Assembly (NCBI RefSeq): GCF_022479115.1
Contig: NZ_CP092497.1
Location: 4,464,001-4,528,000 of the forward strand
Reading direction: 5' to 3'
Source: Amycolatopsis sp. EV170708-02-1
GTDB taxonomy: Bacteria > Actinomycetota > Actinomycetes > Mycobacteriales > Pseudonocardiaceae
DNA: 64,000 nt
The translations under genes and the position numbers were made by a program. Each line of letters opens with the position of its first letter. Positions within the stretch are counted from its first letter, which is position 1. The notes beneath the pieces were generated by a model that had not been told where the DNA came from, ran no database searches, and was given only the letters and a program-made list of their open reading frames with translations. This document shows positions 52,267 to 64,000 of this stretch, piece by piece.

Positions 52267-53303
52267 GCGCTCGCTCCTGTCAGGGTGCGGCCCGCCGGAT
52301 CGGCGAGGTGGAGCAGGTGCTCGCCCGCCCGGTGGATCTCTTCGATGCTCGGATGTCCACTGAGGACGAAGGTGGTGATGCCGGATCGCTCGTAGGCGGC
52401 AAGTCGTTCCGCCACTTGGTCGTAGCTGCCGACCAGCCCGACCGGGACGCGGTGTCCGATGTGGTCGAAGCCGTCGAACCGGAGATCGTCGATGAACCTG
52501 GCCAGGACCTCGGGTTCTGTCGCGGACGGGTCGGTTTCCCGCCACAGCCGCAGCAGCCGTGCTCGTGCCTCGTCTTCGTCCTCTCGCGCGATCACCGGCA
52601 GCACGAGCCCGGCCCCGACCGCGCGGTCGCGGGCCGTGGCCGCGTCGCGCAGGGCAGCGACCTGGGCAGCGAGGCTGTTTGTGGATTCGGTGAACAGATG
52701 TACGTCGCCGTGCTCGGCGGACAGAGCGATGGCCTCGGGTGATGTGCCGGTCAGGTGGACGGTGGGGAAGGGATGTCCGTCGACGGCTTCGTCGAATCCG
52801 CCCGCCACGACGTCGAAATACGTGCCGTCGTGGTGGAACTCGCCGCCGTCGAACCCACCACGGAGCGCGCCCCGGCCGGACCACACGCCTCGGGCGACAG
52901 TGAGGAATTCGGCCGCCCGCTCATAGCGAGCGGTGCCGGTCACCCGGTCGCCGCGTTGCCGCGCGTCCTGCGTGGTGGTGTCCACGTGCAGTAGCCAGTC
53001 GAGCCGGTCCGCGCCGAGGCGCTGGAGGGTCAGCGACAGCTTCGCCGCGTACACCGGTGTGCCGAACGCCGGATGGAACTCGACGATGACCCGGGAATGC
53101 CGGGTGTGCCGCAGGGCTCCGCCCGCGACGATCCAGGATTCCTCGCCGTCCGGGTCGTATGGCGCCACGACACCGTCCAGGCCGGCCAGTTCGGCCGCGT
53201 CGATCACTTGGTGGAGGTGCTCGAATCCGTTGCGCTGCCAGCGGGCCGGATCCGCCCGGCGGCCGTCGCCGCGCAGCGGTAGTTCCCAGAGAAAGCGGGT
53301 CAT
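52263..53303 (-). CDS. Second LLM-class flavin monooxygenase (SsuD-like)
   Basis: A 346-residue luciferase-like monooxygenase, shorter and more divergent than its neighbour but sharing the SsuD landmarks: RVIVEFHPAFGTPVYAAKLS, DWLLHVDTT, PTVHLTGTSPEAI, GLVGSYDQVAERL and FVLSGHPSIEEIHRAGEHLL. Together with the neighbour and the desulfinase it forms a plausible stepwise desulfurisation set, one monooxygenase oxidising the sulfur and another cleaving the C-S bond. Both ends overlap adjacent genes by four bases. Confidence 0.87.
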   Translation of the reverse strand: MTRFLWELPLRGDGRRADPARWQRNGFEHLHQVIDAAELAGLDGVVAPYDPDGEESWIVAGGALRHTRHSRVIVEFHPAFGTPVYAAKLSLTLQRLGADRLDWLLHVDTTTQDARQRGDRVTGTARYERAAEFLTVARGVWSGRGALRGGFDGGEFHHDGTYFDVVAGGFDEAVDGHPFPTVHLTGTSPEAIALSAEHGDVHLFTESTNSLAAQVAALRDAATARDRAVGAGLVLPVIAREDEDEARARLLRLWRETDPSATEPEVLARFIDDLRFDGFDHIGHRVPVGLVGSYDQVAERLAAYERSGITTFVLSGHPSIEEIHRAGEHLLHLADPAGRTLTGASA

Positions 53304-54319
53304 GACAGCTGCCTCCTCGCCTGCTCGAGCGGTTCGTGCGCCACCCACGAATCGAGGTCGAAGTCGGTGGCGAGGAAGCCGTGGCTGTAGAGGAACTGCT
53401 TCTGCACACCGAGGAGTTCGATGCGTTCGGCCGACAGTGTCGGGTGCAGGCCGAGGTGGAAATCGTCGCCGTAGGCCGAGGTCACACCCTCGGGGCCGGA
53501 GAAGGTCTCACGAGCCAGCACGGTACGTACCTCGTCCAGGTGGTCCACCGCCCAATCGGCGGCGCGCAGGCTCGCGGCGAGGAAGCCGACGACCAGATCC
53601 GGCCGGCTTTCGAGTAAGTCGGCGTGGACGGTGATCGGGCGCGGAGTGCCGTTGTTGACCCGGCCCCGCCGATCGGTTCCGGTGTCGAGGTCGACCGCCA
53701 CCTGGAGTTCGTGCTGCCGCGCGGTTTCCGCGGCCCGCGCACCCTTGACGTAGATCGCGTCGACCTCACCGGCCAGCAGCTCCGTCACGCCCCAGGTAGT
53801 ACGGCGTGAGACCGTGTCCCGCACTTCGGGTGTGCGGTTGACGTCGAGCTCGACCACGGTCACGTCGGCCAGGGTCAGCCCGGCCAGGCGCAGCGCGTTG
53901 GCGAAGCCGTGCAATGCCATGGCTCGCGGGAAACTGCGCGCCTGGTCGGCGGCCCACGCGGGGACGCCGATCCGCTTTCCCGCGAGCCCGGCCGGACCGG
54001 TGACAGGGGAGTCGGGGCCGACGAGGATCGCTTGGGCCTCGTCGATCCACGTCAGCCCGATCAGCCTGGTCGGCGAACCGGCCGCGCGGGCGGCGAGGGC
54101 CGGGACGTTGCCACCCTCCCGGATCAGCCCGCGCAGGCGGTGATCGAAGTGGTGGACGGCGATGTCGGGGCCGGCGTCCTGCAACACTTCGAGGGGAAGC
54201 CCGTGCGCACCGGCGTTGTCGGCGAGCCAGCCGAGGCTGTGCGCGAGGCCGCTCGCCGTCGGCACGGGGCAACGGGTGTACCAGAGGGTGTCGATGGCGG
54301 GTTCATGGGTGACGGTCAT
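53300..54319 (-). CDS. DszB-like sulfinate desulfinase (binding-protein fold)
   Basis: A 339-residue cytosolic protein of the periplasmic-binding fold. Its start matches 2'-hydroxybiphenyl-2-sulfinate desulfinase (DszB): TLWYTRCPVPTA aligns with the DszB segment carrying the catalytic Cys27, giving Cys17 here. VHHFDH provides the catalytic His (56/57), and IREGGNVP matches the DszB RFGGEIP segment that holds the catalytic Arg, here Arg67. GPDSPVTGPAGLAGKRIGVPA and EVDAIYVKGA are also family-like. It would release sulfite from an aromatic or alkyl sulfinate. The GGAG at its start lies inside the ATPase gene; the two overlap by 17 bases. The real substrate is unknown. Confidence 0.82.
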   Translation of the reverse strand: MTVTHEPAIDTLWYTRCPVPTASGLAHSLGWLADNAGAHGLPLEVLQDAGPDIAVHHFDHRLRGLIREGGNVPALAARAAGSPTRLIGLTWIDEAQAILVGPDSPVTGPAGLAGKRIGVPAWAADQARSFPRAMALHGFANALRLAGLTLADVTVVELDVNRTPEVRDTVSRRTTWGVTELLAGEVDAIYVKGARAAETARQHELQVAVDLDTGTDRRGRVNNGTPRPITVHADLLESRPDLVVGFLAASLRAADWAVDHLDEVRTVLARETFSGPEGVTSAYGDDFHLGLHPTLSAERIELLGVQKQFLYSHGFLATDFDLDSWVAHEPLEQARRQLS

Positions 54320-55052
54320 GGAGCTCCTCCTGGGATTTCGGGGCGCCGCCGACACCAAGGTCGGCGAGGAAGGTGGCGCGGTAGCCGAGTGCGGCGGGAT
54401 CGGTGCGGTCGCGGGGGTGCGGAAGATCGACCGGCTCGTCGCGGCTGAACCGTCCGTTGTGGAGGACCAGCACGCGGTCGGCCAGCCGGATGGCCTCGTC
54501 GACGTCGTGGGTGACCAGCAGCACCGCGGGCCGGTGGCGTGCCACGAGATCACCGACGAGGTCTTGCATCCGCAGCCGGGTCAGCGCGTCGAGCGCGGCG
54601 AACGGCTCGTCGAGCAGCAGCAGTTCCGGCTCCCGGACCAAAGCCCTGGCCAGCGCGACCCGTTGCGCTTCACCGCCGGAGAGGGTGGCGGGCCACGCGC
54701 GGTGTTTGCCGGCGAGGCCGACCTCGGCGAGCGCGCGCCGGCCGTTGTCCGTGGTCGCCCGGCCGCGCTTCTGCCCGATGACCACATTGGACAGTACTCG
54801 TTTCGACGGGACCAGCCGTGGTTCCTGGTAGACCACGGTCCGTTGCCTCGGCACGAGGACGTTGCCGGCGTCGGGTCGTTCCAGGCCGAGCAACAGGCGC
54901 AGCAACGTGGTCTTGCCGGTACCGCTGGGGCCGAGCAGGACGACGAATTCGCCGCGGTGCACGTCGAGGTCGATCCCGTCGAGGATCACCTTGTCGCCGA
55001 AGGACTTGCGTACGCCGGACAGTGACACGGCGAGCTCGGTGGTGGTCGTCAT
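54303..55052 (-). CDS. ABC transporter ATPase, SsuB/TauB family
   Basis: A 249-residue nucleotide-binding subunit. Walker A GPSGTGKTT is near residue 42, the ABC signature is LSGGEAQRVALARAL, Walker B is LLLLDEPFAALD and the switch His is in THDVDEA. It powers the importer formed by the permease and lipoprotein encoded just upstream, of the nitrate/sulfonate/taurine class. The ATG at 55052 overlaps the permease stop (ATGA) and is chosen over upstream in-frame starts that have no family sequence. Confidence 0.93.
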   Translation of the reverse strand: MTTTTELAVSLSGVRKSFGDKVILDGIDLDVHRGEFVVLLGPSGTGKTTLLRLLLGLERPDAGNVLVPRQRTVVYQEPRLVPSKRVLSNVVIGQKRGRATTDNGRRALAEVGLAGKHRAWPATLSGGEAQRVALARALVREPELLLLDEPFAALDALTRLRMQDLVGDLVARHRPAVLLVTHDVDEAIRLADRVLVLHNGRFSRDEPVDLPHPRDRTDPAALGYRATFLADLGVGGAPKSQEELHDRHP

Positions 55053-55894
55053 CGGGCCGCCACCCCCGCTCGCCACGGCATGGAGAACCGTTCGAGTACC
55101 CGCACGGCGGCGTCGAACAGCAGGCCCAGCACGGCATAGAGGACCACGCACAGCACCATGTAGTCGGTGCGGTTGTACTCCTGCGCCAGGCTGACGAGAT
55201 AGCCGATGCCTTCACGGGTTCCGACCTGTTCGGCGGCGATGAGGCCGGTGATGCTGATGGACAGGCAGATCCGCAGCGCCATCAGTACCGCGGGCAGCGC
55301 CGAGGGCAGGATCGCGCCGAACACCAGCCGTGGCCCGCGCAGGCCGAAGCTGCGCGCCGCCTCCAGCATCTTGCGGTCGACGTTCCGGACGCCGAGGTAG
55401 GTGTAGGCGTACATCGGCGCGACCGTCGCGGTCGCGATCAGCAGCACCTTGAACTGTTCGTCGATGCCGAACCACGAGATGAACAACGGGACCAGCGCCA
55501 GGAACGGGATCGCGCGGTTGATCTGCATGGTCGCGTCGATCAGTTCCTCGCCGAGCGCGGACAACCCGGACAAGACCCCGAACACCAACCCTGCCGCGAC
55601 CCCGAGGAGAACACCCGCGGCGACCCGCTGGAACGAGGCGAGAGCGAAGTCCACGAGCTGACCGGTCTGGTACAGCTCGGCGAACGCGGTCCACACCTTC
55701 GGCGGTCCGGGCAGCACCTCGGGAGAGATCGCGCCGGTCGCCGAACCGATCCACCATGCCGTCACGAGCAGCAGGGGAACCGAGAACCGCAACGGAATCG
55801 ACAGCCAACGCGACCGTTCGCGGTTGCCACGGTGATCCGGGCGGACGAGGTCGATCGGCTCCGCACGGGACGGCGTGCTCACGACCGCGGTCAT
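55049..55894 (-). CDS. ABC transporter permease, SsuC/TauC family
   Basis: A 281-residue inner-membrane protein with about six helices and the BPD_transp_1 EAA loop (KMLEAARSFGLRGPRLVFGAILPSALPAVL). It forms the import channel for an organosulfur compound with the neighbouring ATPase. It overlaps its neighbours by four bases on each side. Confidence 0.93.
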   Translation of the reverse strand: MTAVVSTPSRAEPIDLVRPDHRGNRERSRWLSIPLRFSVPLLLVTAWWIGSATGAISPEVLPGPPKVWTAFAELYQTGQLVDFALASFQRVAAGVLLGVAAGLVFGVLSGLSALGEELIDATMQINRAIPFLALVPLFISWFGIDEQFKVLLIATATVAPMYAYTYLGVRNVDRKMLEAARSFGLRGPRLVFGAILPSALPAVLMALRICLSISITGLIAAEQVGTREGIGYLVSLAQEYNRTDYMVLCVVLYAVLGLLFDAAVRVLERFSMPWRAGVAAR

Positions 55895-56934
55895 TTGCCA
55901 CTCGCCTTGTGCTGGGCGAGCTTGCCGGGCAGGTCGTAGAACACGTCCGCCGAGGTGATCTCGCGCAGGGTGACACGGTGCTGGAAGAACAGGCCCGCCA
56001 CGGAATCGAGGTCCTCCGCGTCCTGGGGCGTCGGATAGCGCGGCACAGCGGCCTCCGCACCGAGAGCGAGCGCGCGATCCAGCCTGGCTCCCGACAGGGC
56101 ACGCGGGCCCGCCTTCTCGAAGACGTTCTCGAAGGCGGCAGGATCCGTGCGCTGCTGTTTCGTCAGTTCCTGCAGGGTTTCCAGGTACTTGGCGGCGACA
56201 TCGGGTCGCTCCTCGAGCACCGCTGTCCGGAACGCGACGATGGTGTTGTCGACCGACCCGATGCTTTCCTCGGTGGCGATCTCCACCGCTCCCTTGGCCT
56301 TCGCCTCCTGGTAGGGCTCGTTGAACGAGGCCCACGCGTCCACTTTCCCGGTGGCGAAGGCGGAGGTGGCGTCGGCCTGCTGCAGCGGTACCCGCTCGAC
56401 CCGATCGGCCGGGATTCCGGCCTGTGCCAGTGCTTTGAGCGTGATGTACTCGCCCTTTCCGGCCGGGTTGACCGCGATCCGTTTGCCCACCAGGTCCGGC
56501 ACCGATCTGATGCCGGATGCCGGAGAGGCCAGAATCCCGTTGCGGTCCTTGCCGACCGGGTCGGCGACCGCGATGATCCGCACGCCGACGTCCTTGGACA
56601 AGGCCCCGACCACGGGGCTGTAGGCGCCACCGGAGACGTCGAGCCTGCCGGTGTTGAACAACTTCAAGTTGGAGCTGAAGCCCGGTGTGCTCTCCACCCA
56701 CTCGACTCGGGCGCCCAACGGGGCGAGGGCTTTGTCGAAGGTCCCGTCTCGCTTCCCTACCGCGAGCGGGCCGGCGTTACCGGGGTCGGTGACCTTGAGG
56801 ACGAAGGAGGCGTCGCCGGCCACACCCGCGTCGGCACCCGTGCCGCAGCCCGCGGCGGTCAGCGCGAGGAGAGACGCCATCGCGAGCGTGAATCCGGCGA
56901 GGCCGGGTGTGCTGGACAGAGGTGTGCGGGGCAT
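55891..56934 (-). CDS. ABC transporter substrate-binding lipoprotein, SsuA family
   Basis: A 347-residue exported lipoprotein. The signal peptide ends at a lipobox LTAAGC near residue 30. The mature part has the NMT1/SsuA fold (SVPDLVGKRIAVNPAGKGEYI, VDAWASFNEPYQ, SIGSVDNTIVAFRTAVL). It captures the substrate outside the membrane for the SsuBC-type channel. It is the first gene of the leftward eight-gene operon, with the promoter in the 183 bases shared with the divergent IclR gene. Confidence 0.92.
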   Translation of the reverse strand: MPRTPLSSTPGLAGFTLAMASLLALTAAGCGTGADAGVAGDASFVLKVTDPGNAGPLAVGKRDGTFDKALAPLGARVEWVESTPGFSSNLKLFNTGRLDVSGGAYSPVVGALSKDVGVRIIAVADPVGKDRNGILASPASGIRSVPDLVGKRIAVNPAGKGEYITLKALAQAGIPADRVERVPLQQADATSAFATGKVDAWASFNEPYQEAKAKGAVEIATEESIGSVDNTIVAFRTAVLEERPDVAAKYLETLQELTKQQRTDPAAFENVFEKAGPRALSGARLDRALALGAEAAVPRYPTPQDAEDLDSVAGLFFQHRVTLREITSADVFYDLPGKLAQHKASGK

Positions 56935-57031
56935 GGAGGTAACTCCTGAAGGGGGTCCGGCTCAGCGGCTCGGTCAAGACGTCCGGACCATAACCACGCG
57001 ATTCCCAGCGGAGCCACCAGTTCCACGGACT

Positions 57032-57043
57032 GGAAAGACTTCC
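57032..57043. promoter_or_regulatory. Candidate IclR operator, short palindrome
   Basis: GGAA-AGAC-TTCC is a perfect short palindrome of the TGGAAA/TTTCC type used by IclR proteins, about 100 bases before the sulfur-operon start and 75 before the regulator start. Confidence 0.4.
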
Positions 57044-57080
57044 GCCTTATCGCGTCTTCGGTGCACCCTGGCCGAGGGAG

Positions 57081-57099
57081 CTTTCCGATATCCGGAAAG
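57081..57099. promoter_or_regulatory. Candidate IclR operator, 7-bp inverted repeat
   Basis: CTTTCCG and CGGAAAG form a perfect inverted repeat around a five-base centre ATATC, 19 bases before the IclR start codon. Its half-site matches that of the palindrome at 57032-57043, suggesting one regulator binds both and controls the two divergent promoters. Confidence 0.55.
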
Positions 57100-57117
57100 C
57101 GCGGTACGGTTTTGCCC

Positions 57118-57870
57118 GTGGCACGAAGTGGTGATGGCGGAGTCCAGACCGTGGCGAGGGCGCTGGCCGTCCTCGGCTGTTTCCGCACCGGCGAGGAGCA
57201 AGGCATCTCCGAACTGGCCCGCGGAGTCGGCCTGCCGGTGAGCACGACGCACCGGCTGGTCACGGCTCTGGTGGACGCCGGATTTCTGGAGAAGAACCCT
57301 GAATCCGGTCGCTACCGCATCGGTGGCGCGCTCGCGGAATACGGCCAGATCGCCTACCGGCAGCACAAGGTCTACCTTGTCGAGCCCCACCTGGAGCAGC
57401 TCGCGACCACCACCGGTGCCTCCGCGTCGGTCGCGATCCGCCACGGCAACGACGCGGTGCTGCTCGGCACCAGCCGCTGGCGCGAGGCCGAGGGCCACCG
57501 CCTCCAGGGCCTCCGCCTCCCGCTGCACGCGAGCGCGCTGGGCCGCGCGCTGCTGGCGTGGTCCGCCCCCTCGGACGACGAACTCGCCCGGCTCCCGTTC
57601 ACCGACGCCACCGACCGGGCCCCGGCCGATCCCGCCGAACTGGCCAAGGAACTCGCGCTCACCAGGGAACGGGGATGGGCGTTCAACGACGAGGAACTGG
57701 CCGAAGGCTTCCGCACCATCGGCATCCCGGTACTCGATCGCGACGGCCGGCCCAGATTCGCGTTGGGACTGCGCGGCACCACCGAACTCATGATCCCCGA
57801 ACGCGTCCCCTTCTTCGTCGACCTGGCCAAGATCACCGCCGCCGAGATCGGGGGCGTCCTGCTTCCCTGA
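57118..57870 (+). CDS. IclR-family transcriptional regulator
   Basis: A 250-residue regulator. The N-terminal winged helix (about 8-68) contains GISELARGVGLPVSTTHRLV. The IclR effector domain follows (GASASVAIRHGND, LPLHASALGRALLAW, ERGWAFNDEEL). It is divergent from the organosulfur operon and probably represses it until an organosulfur substrate or a low-sulfate signal appears. The GTG at 57118 starts two codons before the conserved region; a longer in-frame start at 57061 would run through the inverted repeat and is less likely. Confidence 0.88.
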   Translation: MARSGDGGVQTVARALAVLGCFRTGEEQGISELARGVGLPVSTTHRLVTALVDAGFLEKNPESGRYRIGGALAEYGQIAYRQHKVYLVEPHLEQLATTTGASASVAIRHGNDAVLLGTSRWREAEGHRLQGLRLPLHASALGRALLAWSAPSDDELARLPFTDATDRAPADPAELAKELALTRERGWAFNDEELAEGFRTIGIPVLDRDGRPRFALGLRGTTELMIPERVPFFVDLAKITAAEIGGVLLP

Positions 57871-60194: not shown

Positions 60195-60494
60195 TCACTG
60201 GTCCGGATCGATGGTGGTGAATGTCTCCAGTTTGCGGTCCGCCAGCAGCTCGATTGCTTCGCCCAGGACCCGGGTCCGGAATGCCTCCGTTGCTCGGTGG
60301 TCTTCGTATCCCGAGGGGTCGGTGTAGTGCTCGTAGAGGACGATCGTGTCGGGGTCGCTGGTGCTGACCTGGGCCTGGAAGTGGAGCGTTTTCGGCTCGC
60401 CGCGGTTGCCCGGGGTCATTTCCTCCAGGACGCGTATCACCTTGTCCCGCGCTCCTGGTTTGGCCTTCCAGGTCGCGATCACGACATGTCCCAT
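60195..60494 (-). CDS. ABM-family (antibiotic biosynthesis monooxygenase-like) protein
   Basis: A 99-residue single ABM ferredoxin-like domain (VVIATWKAKPGARDKVIRVLEEM, then VLYEHYTDPSGYEDH). Members are cofactor-free monooxygenases of quinols or small degradation enzymes. It is the last gene of the diiron-monooxygenase operon, 22 bases after the uL22-DUF59 fusion, and may act on a phenolic or quinone product. A degradative monooxygenase role is inferred only from the fold and context. Confidence 0.82.
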   Translation of the reverse strand: MGHVVIATWKAKPGARDKVIRVLEEMTPGNRGEPKTLHFQAQVSTSDPDTIVLYEHYTDPSGYEDHRATEAFRTRVLGEAIELLADRKLETFTTIDPDQ

Positions 60495-60516: not shown

Positions 60517-61251
60517 TCAGATGGTGAAGCCGATGGCGCGCAATTGCTCGCGGCCTTCGGGCGTGATCTCCGCCGGCGTCCATGACGGCGTCCATTCCCA
60601 GTCGATGCGGAAGTCGTCGACGGGCGGTGTGGGGCCTTCCAGGAGTTCTTTGCGGATCTGGTCTTCCATGACACCGGTCAGCGGGCAGGCCGCGGAGGTG
60701 AGCGTCATGGTGAGGACCGCGGTGGTGTTCTCCACGGACACGCCGCGGACGAATCCGAGGTCGACGATGTTGATCCCCAGGTCCGGATCGATGACGTCCA
60801 TGAGCCTGTCGCGCAGCTCGGGGACCAGGGGGTGCGCCGGGTCTCCAGCCTGTGCTGGTGGCGCCGCGGGCGCATGGGGGGCGGGGGTCGATCGCGCGAT
60901 CTCGTAAAGGCCGGAGGGAGTGAGCTCGATCGAGACGTTGCTGGTGACGCTCGTGATCCAGTCGGCCTTGCCGTGTGCCTTGCGGCGCACGCGGACGATG
61001 TTCTCGCCTTCCTCGATCCTGCCTGAGGTGACCCGCAGCGTGCCCGGGTCGAGCCCGGCGGCGGAGGCGTCGGCGACCGCCCGGTCCAGTACTCGTGCCA
61101 GTGGTTCGCAGGTACGGCCAGGTCCGTGGCGCAGCTTGGCGACCGCGTTCACGAGGTCGTGGCCGAGGATCTTGTCGAGTGCTTCGCGTGCGTTGTCGTG
61201 GTCGACGCGGACTTGGTTCTCGTGCACGTCGAGTGTCGTCAAGGTGGACAT
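60517..61251 (-). CDS. uL22-like domain fused to DUF59/MIP18 domain
   Basis: A 244-residue two-domain protein. Residues about 15-112 resemble ribosomal protein uL22: LARVLDRAVADA matches the uL22 helix before its beta hairpin, TLRVTSGRIEEG aligns with LKVTKIFVDEG, RKAHGKAD with RAKGRAD, and TSNVSIEL with the last strand. After a Pro/Ala linker (122-139), residues 140-244 form a DUF59/MIP18/PaaD-like domain (DPDLGINIVDLGFV, Cys189 in SAACP, WTPAEITPEGREQL), a family that helps load iron or iron-sulfur centres. The start at 61251 has GGAGG at a usable distance, better than the adjacent ATG at 61254. It follows the ferredoxin reductase in the diiron monooxygenase operon and probably aids cofactor assembly there. 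Confidence 0.82.
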   Translation of the reverse strand: MSTLTTLDVHENQVRVDHDNAREALDKILGHDLVNAVAKLRHGPGRTCEPLARVLDRAVADASAAGLDPGTLRVTSGRIEEGENIVRVRRKAHGKADWITSVTSNVSIELTPSGLYEIARSTPAPHAPAAPPAQAGDPAHPLVPELRDRLMDVIDPDLGINIVDLGFVRGVSVENTTAVLTMTLTSAACPLTGVMEDQIRKELLEGPTPPVDDFRIDWEWTPSWTPAEITPEGREQLRAIGFTI

Positions 61252-61274
61252 CATGCCTCCACGCGGGCTGGTGG

Positions 61275-62489
61275 CTATCGCCGCGCCAGCCGGTTCAAGG
61301 GGGTGGCTTCGTCCTGCAACTGTTCCGCGCTCACGGTGTGGTCCGTGAACAGCATCCGGCGGACAGCGAGAACGTCCTTGGGGCGGTTCAGGGAGATGAC
61401 GCGGGTGATGCGTCCGTCCCGGAGAGAGAAGGCGGAGAACGACAGATCATCGAGGGAGCCCCGGAGGACCATGTCGTCGTCGGGCTTGGCCCGGCCCACT
61501 TGCTGGATGCTGTGGTCGTATTGGTCGGACCAGAACCAGTGCGCCTCGGCGAAGGGCGCGTCCAATCCGAGCATGTTCTTCGCGGCCGACGCGCCGTGCC
61601 GGATCGCCGAGTCGTGGTGTTCGACGCGCAGGTGCTCTTTGTAGAAGGGATGGAACGTGGATGCCACGTCGCCCGCGGCGAAAACATCGCGGGCGCTGGT
61701 CCGGGAGAATTGATCGGTGACGATGCCGCCCTTGACCTCGATGCCCGCGGAGTGGGCCAGCTCGACATTGGGCTGGGAACCCGCGCCGACCAGGACGAGG
61801 TCCGCTTCGATCCGGCCGTGGTCCGTTCGGGCGACCACGGTCGTGGGAGTCTCGTCGATTCTCTGCACGACGACACCGGCCACGACGTGCACGCCCGCGG
61901 CCCGGTGCACGTCGGTCATCACACCACCGATCACCGGGCCCAGCGCGGCCTGCATCAGCGTCTCGGTGCGCTCGAGCACTGTGACCCGTTTGCCCATCGA
62001 CACCGCGGTCGAGGCCGCCTCGCAGCCGATGAATCCGCCACCCAGGATCGCGACCCGGTCGGCGGCGGCGATCCGGGTCCGCGCCTCCTGTGCGTCGGCG
62101 ATGGAGCGCAACGTCTGGATGCGGTCGCTGTCGACGTGGGGCAGTGTCCGTGCCCGGACGCCGGTGGCGATCAGCAGCTTGTCGTAGGACAGCTGTTCGG
62201 CAGTGGAAAGGTCGATCGTCTTCGCCGTGGTGTCCAGGGATTCGGCGCGAGTCCGGAGCAGGACCGTGACGTCGTGCTCGGCGTACCAGTCGGCCGATTT
62301 GACCAGGGTCGCGGTTCCGTCCGTCTCCGGGGAGAGGAACCGCTTCGACAGCGGGGGGCGCTCATACGGCAGCGCCACGTCGTCGCTGACGATGCAGACT
62401 TCGCCCTCGAAGCCGTTGGCGCGGAGGGTGGCCGCTGCCGAAGCGGCGGCCACCCCTCCGCCGACGATGACGTGGCGCTGCCTGCTCAT
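61275..62489 (-). CDS. FAD-dependent ferredoxin reductase of the diiron monooxygenase
   Basis: A 404-residue pyridine-nucleotide:ferredoxin oxidoreductase. The FAD fingerprint VGGGVAAASAA is at the N-terminus, the NAD fingerprint LGGGFIGCEAAS is near residue 150, and FAAGDVAS marks the second FAD contact. It passes electrons from NAD(P)H to the Rieske ferredoxin. TmoF of toluene-4-monooxygenase is an unrelated ferredoxin-fused reductase, so this operon uses an oxygenase-coupled NADH reductase of the BphA4 type instead. The ATG overlaps the ferredoxin stop. Confidence 0.92.
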   Translation of the reverse strand: MSRQRHVIVGGGVAAASAAATLRANGFEGEVCIVSDDVALPYERPPLSKRFLSPETDGTATLVKSADWYAEHDVTVLLRTRAESLDTTAKTIDLSTAEQLSYDKLLIATGVRARTLPHVDSDRIQTLRSIADAQEARTRIAAADRVAILGGGFIGCEAASTAVSMGKRVTVLERTETLMQAALGPVIGGVMTDVHRAAGVHVVAGVVVQRIDETPTTVVARTDHGRIEADLVLVGAGSQPNVELAHSAGIEVKGGIVTDQFSRTSARDVFAAGDVASTFHPFYKEHLRVEHHDSAIRHGASAAKNMLGLDAPFAEAHWFWSDQYDHSIQQVGRAKPDDDMVLRGSLDDLSFSAFSLRDGRITRVISLNRPKDVLAVRRMLFTDHTVSAEQLQDEATPLNRLARR

Positions 62490-62818
62490 GAGCCGACGTC
62501 CACTCGGATCACGCCGTCGTCGCCGACCTCGCACGGGTAGCCGTTGAGGCAGGAGTCGTCCGGATTGATGCCCTTGCCGCTCGCCGCGTCGAACGTCCAC
62601 ATGTGCCGCAGGCAGGTGAGCGTTTCGCCGTCGAAGTCGCCCTCGTCGAGCACCCACGCCTGGTGGGGGCACCGGTTCTGATAGGCCTTGACGTCGCCGT
62701 CGACGTTGATGAGCAGAACTTTCACCCCGTCGACCTCGACGGGAACCATGTCGCCTTCCCAGAGCTCATCGAGGTGAATCGTCTTTCGCCATTGCGTGGT
62801 CGCGCTCGCGGAGGTCAT
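62486..62818 (-). CDS. Rieske ferredoxin (TmoC-like)
   Basis: A 110-residue Rieske [2Fe-2S] protein. The cluster ligands are Cys50-Pro-His52 and Cys69-Leu-Arg-His72, with the usual Gln after the first pair (CPHQ). It carries electrons from the reductase to the diiron hydroxylase. It overlaps the beta-subunit gene and the reductase gene by four bases each. Confidence 0.94.
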   Translation of the reverse strand: MTSASATTQWRKTIHLDELWEGDMVPVEVDGVKVLLINVDGDVKAYQNRCPHQAWVLDEGDFDGETLTCLRHMWTFDAASGKGINPDDSCLNGYPCEVGDDGVIRVDVGS

Positions 62819-63855
62819 GCCGATGCCCTGTTCGTGTCCCGCAGGATCGAGTCGGTGAACGCCTCCCGGGCGGCACGAGCGCCGGCGGCCACCTCCACGC
62901 TCGGGCGACCGGACTCGGGAAGCGTCTCGAGGATCCGGCCGAGCCCGGCGGCGGCATCGTCGGCGATGGGTGCCCATTTGCCGATCCATTTGTCGATCGC
63001 GGCGGCCGATTCGGCTCGCCGGCCGATCGCGAAGGTGGCGACCGCCTTGCTCCACCGGTTGCGACGCTGGTTGTCGGCGTCCAGGAAGCTCTGCAGCAGC
63101 CAGCCGAGATTGTCGCCGTTGGTGAGGGCGATCTCGCCGAACTGCCGGGTGAGCACGTCGTCCAGGGTCGGCAGCAGGACCAGGTTCAGCGCGGTGAACG
63201 CCTCGCCCCAGTCGTAGGTGATCAGCGCGGACTCCACTGCCTTGCGGGTCGCCTGCCACGCCGGGTGCTGCTCCCAGTGCCGGCGCTCCTGGGCGGTGCC
63301 GATGCCGGCGTCCGGGTGCGCGACCTGGAGCTCGCGGGTCCGGTAGGCCACCGTGGTCACTCGCCGCAGGAAGTCTGCGGTGGCCAGGCCGGCGGGGTTG
63401 GTGATGTAGGAGGTCGGTGCCAGGTAGCCGAGGTAGGCCTCGATCTGCTGGAACCCGTGGATCGCGTACCGCGACGGGGTGTACAGCGTGGCGAGTGTCT
63501 CGATCCAGCCGCGGCTGAATTTCGTGTCGGCGCCGAGTTGTGCGTATTCCTCGAGCACGCCGTGGATCTTCGACTCGGACTCGGCTTGTGCGTTCACGTA
63601 CATCCGGTAGGTCAGGCTGTCGGGCTCGCGGAATTGCTCCCAGTCGTCGGCCTGCAGCGGGGACTGGTCACGGTAGGTCAGGAACCACAGATTCGCCGCC
63701 GAGGAAGGGTTTTGCTCGAAGGGGGCGTTGCGGTTCTCGCGGGTGGTCCAGTTCTGGCCGTGTGTGACGATCTCGTATTCGCTGGGCATCTTGCGCACGT
63801 CGCCGAAGGCGCTGAACGTGCGGCGTGCCCGAGGGCGGTTGGTGTGGTCGCTCAT
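62815..63855 (-). CDS. Diiron monooxygenase hydroxylase beta subunit (TmoE-like)
   Basis: A 346-residue structural subunit of a soluble diiron monooxygenase. The match to TmoE is good through PSEYEIVTHG, SPLQADDWEQFREPDSLTY, YAIHGFQQIEAYLG and ITYDWGEAFTALNLVL. It pairs with an alpha subunit that must lie to the right of the window. The family oxidises toluene, benzene, alkenes or isoprene. It overlaps the upstream effector gene by four bases (ATGA). Confidence 0.93.
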   Translation of the reverse strand: MSDHTNRPRARRTFSAFGDVRKMPSEYEIVTHGQNWTTRENRNAPFEQNPSSAANLWFLTYRDQSPLQADDWEQFREPDSLTYRMYVNAQAESESKIHGVLEEYAQLGADTKFSRGWIETLATLYTPSRYAIHGFQQIEAYLGYLAPTSYITNPAGLATADFLRRVTTVAYRTRELQVAHPDAGIGTAQERRHWEQHPAWQATRKAVESALITYDWGEAFTALNLVLLPTLDDVLTRQFGEIALTNGDNLGWLLQSFLDADNQRRNRWSKAVATFAIGRRAESAAAIDKWIGKWAPIADDAAAGLGRILETLPESGRPSVEVAAGARAAREAFTDSILRDTNRASA

Positions 63856-64000
63856 CGGACGAGCTCTCCTTCCGGAGCGTCGCGCTTGATCTTTTCCCAG
63901 ACGATGTCGTCGCTGGTGGTGATGACGCGTCCGACGAAGGACGACATCATCGTCTGGAAGGAGCGGATCTCGTAGTCGGCTCCCAAATAGGCCCGGAGCG
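63852..64000 (-). CDS. Effector (coupling) protein of the diiron monooxygenase, C-terminus only
   Basis: The last 49 residues of a gene that enters from the right edge. The visible part, from LGADYEIRSFQ through SFVGRVITTSDDIVWEKI, matches the C-terminal half of TmoD/MmoB-type effector proteins (compare TmoD, whose C-terminus has the same LG-(x)n-SFAG pattern). These small cofactor-free proteins bind the hydroxylase and couple electron transfer to oxygen activation. The gene order effector, beta, Rieske, reductase differs from tmoABCDEF. Confidence 0.75.
   Translation of the reverse strand, partial: LRAYLGADYEIRSFQTMMSSFVGRVITTSDDIVWEKIKRDAPEGELVR

Follow-up and report, generated by a model that had tools for sequence, protein, structure and literature searches.

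DUF59 proteins are described as bringing Fe-S assembly factors and their clients together; Mtb SufT, for example, uses one DUF59 cysteine to bind SufS, SufU, aconitase and SufR and is reported as unlikely to bind iron or an Fe-S cluster itself (PMC9045647). For 761 SufT homologues, a published catalogue records added U-type scaffold, Rieske ferredoxin, CysE, PaaJ/acetyltransferase, P-loop NTPase, DUF1858 and PqqD modules (PMC4982691); the part of that catalogue cited here names no L22 module and describes the commonest N-terminal motif as being without known homology. Among diiron enzymes, PaaABCE is reported to depend on the DUF59 protein PaaD, which is indispensable in vivo and not required in vitro (PMC4498308). 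Some diiron monooxygenases likewise require helpers specific to their operon, for instance MmoG (PMC7994243); MmoG and MimG are described as GroEL-like helpers of sMMO and MimABCD, respectively (PMC7994243, PMC7176365).

Here we describe a gene that joins a uL22 domain, otherwise a ribosomal protein, to a DUF59 domain in the operon of a diiron monooxygenase of Amycolatopsis sp. EV170708-02-1. It lies in a stretch of 64,000 nucleotides (the window) whose relevant features are given in Table 1. A ribosomal fold has been recruited to this type of operon, at first as the neighbour of a DUF59 gene with which it was later fused in a single event, and the resulting family is real and conserved; by analogy with PaaD and SufT, it most likely works as a maturation factor with a new recognition head. 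A sequence-only reading of the window had given the gene as 60517..61251, which is the same reading frame without its first codon: the frame ends at 61254, and the earlier boundary fell on the second Met because the frame opens with ATGATG. Single residues (Cys48, Cys189 and so on) are numbered here from the second Met, and Pfam and PDB domain ranges from the first.

Table 1. Features of the monooxygenase operon within the window (positions of the window, all on the minus strand).
Feature	Position	Strand	Remarks
uL22-DUF59 fusion gene, 245 aa	60517..61254	-	ATGATG start, second Met at 61251
uL22 domain, residues 12-112 of 245	60919..61221	-	Hairpin tip RVRRKAHGKADWI
DUF59/SufT-like domain with Cys189, Pfam match to residues 147-208 of 245	60517..60816	-	Similarity extends to the C-terminus
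ABM-family small protein, last gene of the operon	60195..60494	-	Pfam PF03992; matched at this position in 12 of the 13 named loci
FAD-dependent ferredoxin reductase, HcaD-like	61275..62489	-	Under the cut-off of the HcaD model
Rieske [2Fe-2S] ferredoxin, TmoC-like	62486..62818	-	PF00355
Hydroxylase beta subunit, TmoE-like	62815..63855	-	PF02332, E 1.2e-64
Effector, MmoB/DmpM type	63852..64000	-	3' part only; runs beyond the window

Both domains that had been proposed by eye were recovered. Pfam model PF00237 (Ribosomal_L22) matched residues 12-111 over profile positions 3-103 of 104 (E 2.9e-17, 63.2 bits, cut-off 28) and PF01883 (FeS_assembly_P) matched residues 147-208 (E 1.8e-14, 54.2 bits, cut-off 23.5), while a PDB sequence search aligned residues 13-109 with the uL22 chain 6dzi_T (E 1.5e-10) and residues 134-245 with 5ird_A (E 2.1e-32). 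The motif RKAHGKAD, earlier compared with its bacterial counterpart, sits at the tip of the hairpin in the most conserved stretch of the domain, and Cys189 is the same residue in all 48 aligned rows. An N-terminal fold unlike uL22, the outcome that would have told against the earlier proposal, did not occur: the N-terminal domain has the uL22 fold, and both domains are real. The predicted structure of the whole fusion had a pTM of 0.50, with the relative placement of the two domains uncertain, and pLDDT fell below 50 at residues 187-190, around Cys189. Chance likeness of the N-terminal domain to uL22 was ruled out by the Pfam, PDB sequence, fold and family evidence. A gene-call or sequencing artefact was ruled out as well, as all 13 named loci (from Nocardia, Arthrobacter, Amycolatopsis, Streptomyces, Rhodococcus, Pseudonocardia and two MAGs) have these domains at the equivalent operon position, encoded as one gene in 12 of them and as two in L016.

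The window stops inside the operon, and its full order is taken from L018, a genome stretch extending past the window's end, in which genes outside the window are named by their match to an annotated R. koreensis plasmid copy. The operon context noted earlier (Rieske ferredoxin, reductase and hydroxylase subunits) is thus correct and continues beyond the window: in transcription order, a DJ-1/PfpI gene, two SnoaL/NTF2 genes and the hydroxylase alpha (508 aa) and gamma genes lie upstream of the MmoB/DmpM effector, which is followed by beta, the Rieske ferredoxin, the FAD reductase, uL22-DUF59 and ABM. Since alpha, beta, gamma, effector, Rieske and reductase are all present, this is a toluene-monooxygenase-like set, and the annotation of the R. 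koreensis copy names toluene monooxygenase parts. The operon shares its alpha, beta, gamma, effector, Rieske and reductase genes with the Tmo set (TmoABCDEF) but adds the DJ-1/PfpI, two SnoaL, uL22-DUF59 and ABM genes; Tmo operons are not known to carry uL22 or DUF59. Gene order was the same in 13 of 13 named loci, with the ABM gene lacking a match in one (L007). Besides the DJ-1/PfpI-type gene that opens the operon, a second, divergent one lies upstream (L018:10970-12955), as it does in 11 of the 13 named loci. Downstream of the operon on the R. koreensis plasmid NZ_CP070611.1 (L062:13111-15994) come glyA, for serine hydroxymethyltransferase, and a gene for succinate-semialdehyde dehydrogenase, which may hint at the pathway.

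The tie to TmoE-like genes that the sequence-only reading had suggested holds for close relatives of the enzyme. An alpha search of the genus (80 genomes) gave seven copies at 74% identity or more in six genomes, and the seven fusion places of the genus fell in the same six genomes; in one of them alpha and the fusion are on two contigs, the sequence being interrupted between alpha and gamma. Among 249 genomes sampled from the family, 11 copies were found at 76% identity or more, and uL22 accompanied all 11. Together these represent 16 different operons with an alpha of at least 74% identity, and the uL22 gene was present in 16/16; within this count the first copy of G963, G941 and G1010 were assigned from coordinates alone, G994 and G1010 are near-copies, and a decayed operon without an alpha match (L156) and one with a broken alpha (L155) were left out. 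Conversely, no uL22/DUF59 match was found at E 1e-3 or 1e-2 beside alpha relatives of 58% identity or less at any of 18 places (L051-L059, L146-L154), a set that leaves aside G968 and three of the five genus copies at 27-28%, which are also below 60%. Loci L005-L017 and L062 were found via the fusion and therefore do not test the linkage from the alpha side. With 16/16 close operons carrying uL22 and 18/18 distant ones lacking it, the gene marks, as judged from these samples, a single monooxygenase clade and not the diiron monooxygenases as a whole. As some related monooxygenases lack it, uL22-DUF59 is not a general requirement. Within the loci inspected, which leave aside the context of most database clusters, it was not seen away from the monooxygenase clade, and the wide occurrence without a diiron monooxygenase that would have spoken against the tie was not encountered. 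L146, an alpha relative without uL22, has the DJ-1 and SnoaL genes and stands among the split rows of the alpha tree with weak support (83/31); loss of uL22 there, rather than its never having been present, is therefore conceivable. Of the two decayed copies, L156 retains remnants of uL22-DUF59, beta, Rieske and reductase (beta and reductase broken), and L155 has no uL22.

In four operons, those of P. dioxanivorans (L016), G441:C23 (L050), G919 (L144) and G879 (L145), uL22 and DUF59 are separate genes, and in L145 the DUF59 gene lies ~10 kb from the operon on the opposite strand. The five separate uL22 proteins scanned all scored as Ribosomal_L22 (51 to 63 bits). On an alpha tree of 36 rows, the 20 fused operons form a single clade (100/99) and the four split ones fall outside it, which suggests that uL22 and DUF59 were fused once, after recruitment, provided that the root lies among operons without uL22. 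The uL22 domain might be a passenger without a role of its own, joined to DUF59 by chance; in favour of this, L050 holds, besides its split pair, a degenerate fused copy whose hairpin is worn (L050:6528-7316, minus strand; PF00237 21.9 bits, under the cut-off). We regard such hitch-hiking as very improbable, given that an unfused uL22 gene stands behind the reductase in the outer lineages, that 14 columns are invariant over 26 uL22 rows, split and fused, and that dN/dS of the uL22 part was below 1 (0.13-0.50) in 8/8 pairs computed, which have loci in common. The L050 operon also has two ABM matches. A search with a split uL22 as query returned six database proteins, including one reductase-type match and one short piece without a Pfam match. 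The split uL22 P0121 (L050:7988-8401), which a public source lists as '50S ribosomal protein L22', is very likely not ribosomal.

The genome's own uL22 is rplV (C1:8381542-8381844), flanked by L2-like and L16-like reading frames as judged by eye, and the uL22 of the fusion is an extra copy that is not within the ribosomal operon. A general uL22 duplication in actinobacteria was rejected within the genomes sampled: 57 of 60 relatives had a Ribosomal_L22 match and three had two, the second copy being the fusion every time, and 196 of 198 phylum genomes had a match and two had two (the own genome and G092). The G092 copies (C2:54099-54407 and C62:1128-1433) have similar scores (131.5 and 129.6 bits), perhaps because rplV is doubled there or the assembly is mixed.

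Compared to 21 actinobacterial rplV domains, the uL22 domains of 66 relatives (including the L156 remnant and the degenerate second L050 copy) have lost nine of 17 conserved basic positions, among them R98, R100, K101 and R102, partly lost one and kept seven, these positions having been picked by conservation and not by rRNA contact. The rplV stretch RIRKRTSH is replaced by WI and mostly uncharged residues. Mean net charge is 2.6 (-2 to 7) in the operon domains vs 8.4 (7 to 11) in rplV, and median pI is 9.1, still basic, vs 10.8; the domain of the window protein itself has a net charge of 0 and a pI of 7.2. New invariant residues, C48, R90 and W98, are identical in 66/66 relatives and found in 0/21 rplV. 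HMM scores of family members come from the family's own profile and are not independent evidence. The operon domain nonetheless shares with rplV its fold, its length and some tip residues (R15, R87, A92, G94, A96, I99 and T103 are retained), whereas on a uL22 tree, built from few columns, 33 operon uL22 parts stand apart from the 21 rplV (100/100). The best uL22 matches of the PDB search include mycobacterial chains; an origin from actinobacterial rplV is suggested by these ranks and not by the uL22 tree, which holds no rplV of other phyla.

These properties bear on whether the fusion acts on the ribosome. In a specialised ribosome, the uL22 head would replace uL22 in some particles and place DUF59 at the tunnel exit, passing metal onto nascent monooxygenase chains. 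The shared fold, length and rplV-like residues, the seven kept basic positions and the still basic median pI speak for such a role, yet the loss of nine of 17 basic positions and of most of the excess charge (all of it in the window's own domain), and the normal rplV kept by all three carriers examined, make it improbable. We give barely more credit to the broader version, in which the fusion would stand in for uL22 in a subset of ribosomes or merely dock at the tunnel exit, so that DUF59 would meet nascent subunits and load metal during translation. What survives of the idea of a recruited translation-type fold is a uL22 fold encoded away from the ribosomal operon, combined with DUF59 and associated with a single type of diiron monooxygenase; the proposed action on nascent chains is not upheld. 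Autoregulation is common among ribosomal proteins, and a positive patch is left at the hairpin tip (RVRRKAHGK), by which the uL22 domain might bind the operon mRNA and couple expression to Fe-S status via DUF59; the reduced charge of the domain and an AraC-type regulator upstream of the operon in the annotated R. koreensis copy leave this a poor candidate.

In the DUF59 part, D155 and P156 (the DP motif) and C189 are invariant in the 48 aligned rows. Compared to SufT (the SUF-operon DUF59; Rv1466 in Mtb), the fusion has the same domain and conserved cysteine, and its DUF59 is 55% identical to that of its own genome's SUF operon (29% to another DUF59 match there). However, 18 operon DUF59 rows, fused and split, form a clade apart from 22 SUF-type rows (100/99) and belong to monooxygenase operons, where they are fused to uL22 or accompany it. 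Of the SUF-type rows, the own genome's copy (genes named by eye) and a Tsukamurella copy lie within a SUF operon, and the remaining rows are labelled SUF by default. The distant DUF59 of L145 groups with the operon clade and not with the SUF-type rows. PaaD resembles the fusion in being a DUF59 helper whose gene lies in the operon of a diiron monooxygenase, the phenylacetyl-CoA epoxidase PaaABCE. Operon and diiron enzyme are different, no uL22 part is described for PaaD in the portion of the report cited above, and the fusion scored below the PaaD equivalog models (NF041868, 70.3 of 180 bits; TIGR02159, 48.9 of 108.15 bits) and is closer to its own genome's SUF-operon DUF59. MmoG and MimG, by the accounts cited above, are likewise operon-specific maturation factors of diiron monooxygenases, but belong to the GroEL-like class and presumably serve another step, protein folding. 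L063 and L064 (NZ_LR134447.1 and NZ_LR134464.1), called Tsukamurella plasmids 5 and 22, may be mislabelled chromosome pieces because they carry a SUF operon and S10-type ribosomal genes.

Gene position bears on a further reading, in which the protein stays in the working monooxygenase complex as a structural or electron-transfer partner (e.g. by holding the reductase or the Rieske protein against the hydroxylase), with DUF59 as no more than a scaffold. In the operons inspected the uL22 gene follows the reductase gene, starting between a 4-nt overlap and 44 nt after its stop in the 16 of 24 loci with an identified start (the annotated R. koreensis copy has the 4-nt overlap; in the eight loci where no start was found, the match probably began before the start codon), and the hairpin is as strongly conserved as a lasting interface would be. 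We nevertheless consider such an accessory subunit unlikely: DUF59 is separately encoded in four operons and distant in one of these, the protein is absent from related operons, and retention of Cys189 and the DP motif points to a role in assembly over scaffolding.

We infer instead that uL22-DUF59 is probably a helper for metal loading of the monooxygenase and not a ribosome part. More specifically, we see about an even chance that it is an adaptor dedicated to the maturation of a single clade of six-component, toluene-monooxygenase-like diiron monooxygenases. DUF59 would act as an arm of SufT type, its conserved cysteine making contact with the SUF iron-sulfur machinery of the cell, and the uL22-fold domain, a ribosomal-protein copy minus about half of its conserved basic positions, would be the client-recognition head. 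The rebuilt hairpin (R87 to I99) together with Cys48 is a candidate docking surface on a monooxygenase component, and docking would let the Rieske ferredoxin and/or the diiron hydroxylase receive metal. The Rieske [2Fe-2S] protein would be the natural client of a DUF59 domain and the diiron site the one paralleled by PaaD; sequence cannot decide between them. The adaptor reading is backed by the domains and fold, the conserved gene order, the enzyme-side linkage and the single fusion; by a DUF59 of the same clade ~10 kb off where it is not adjacent (L145); and by the invariance of C48, R90 and W98, the dN/dS values and the precedents of PaaD, Mtb SufT and MmoG. The reported unlikelihood of Mtb SufT binding iron or a cluster counts against it. 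If the role is as proposed, a universal ribosomal protein fold has turned metalloenzyme helper, first as its own gene and then as a fusion; the protein would be an unrecognised part, perhaps required when these diiron monooxygenases are expressed in foreign hosts, and a clean system for studying how DUF59 proteins choose clients.

A database search with the fusion returned 1823 matches, and both domains were present in 119 of the 120 matches listed; the pairing is therefore beyond chance. Genome samples gave one member, that of the own genome, both among 396 phylum genomes (E up to 1e-40, six candidates scored per genome) and among 345 class genomes (E up to 1e-40, eight candidates scored per genome), and one of 72,556 plasmid records covers most of the fusion protein. 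A title and abstract search of the open-licence literature found no paper on the uL22-DUF59 pairing or its operon, while JGI names the architecture 'metal-sulfur cluster biosynthetic enzyme/ribosomal protein L22'; the architecture is thus already visible in databases, and its biology seems undescribed. Elsewhere in the window, at 53300-57870, a sulfonate/nitrate-type ABC transporter set adjoining an IclR-type regulator was recognised by eye.
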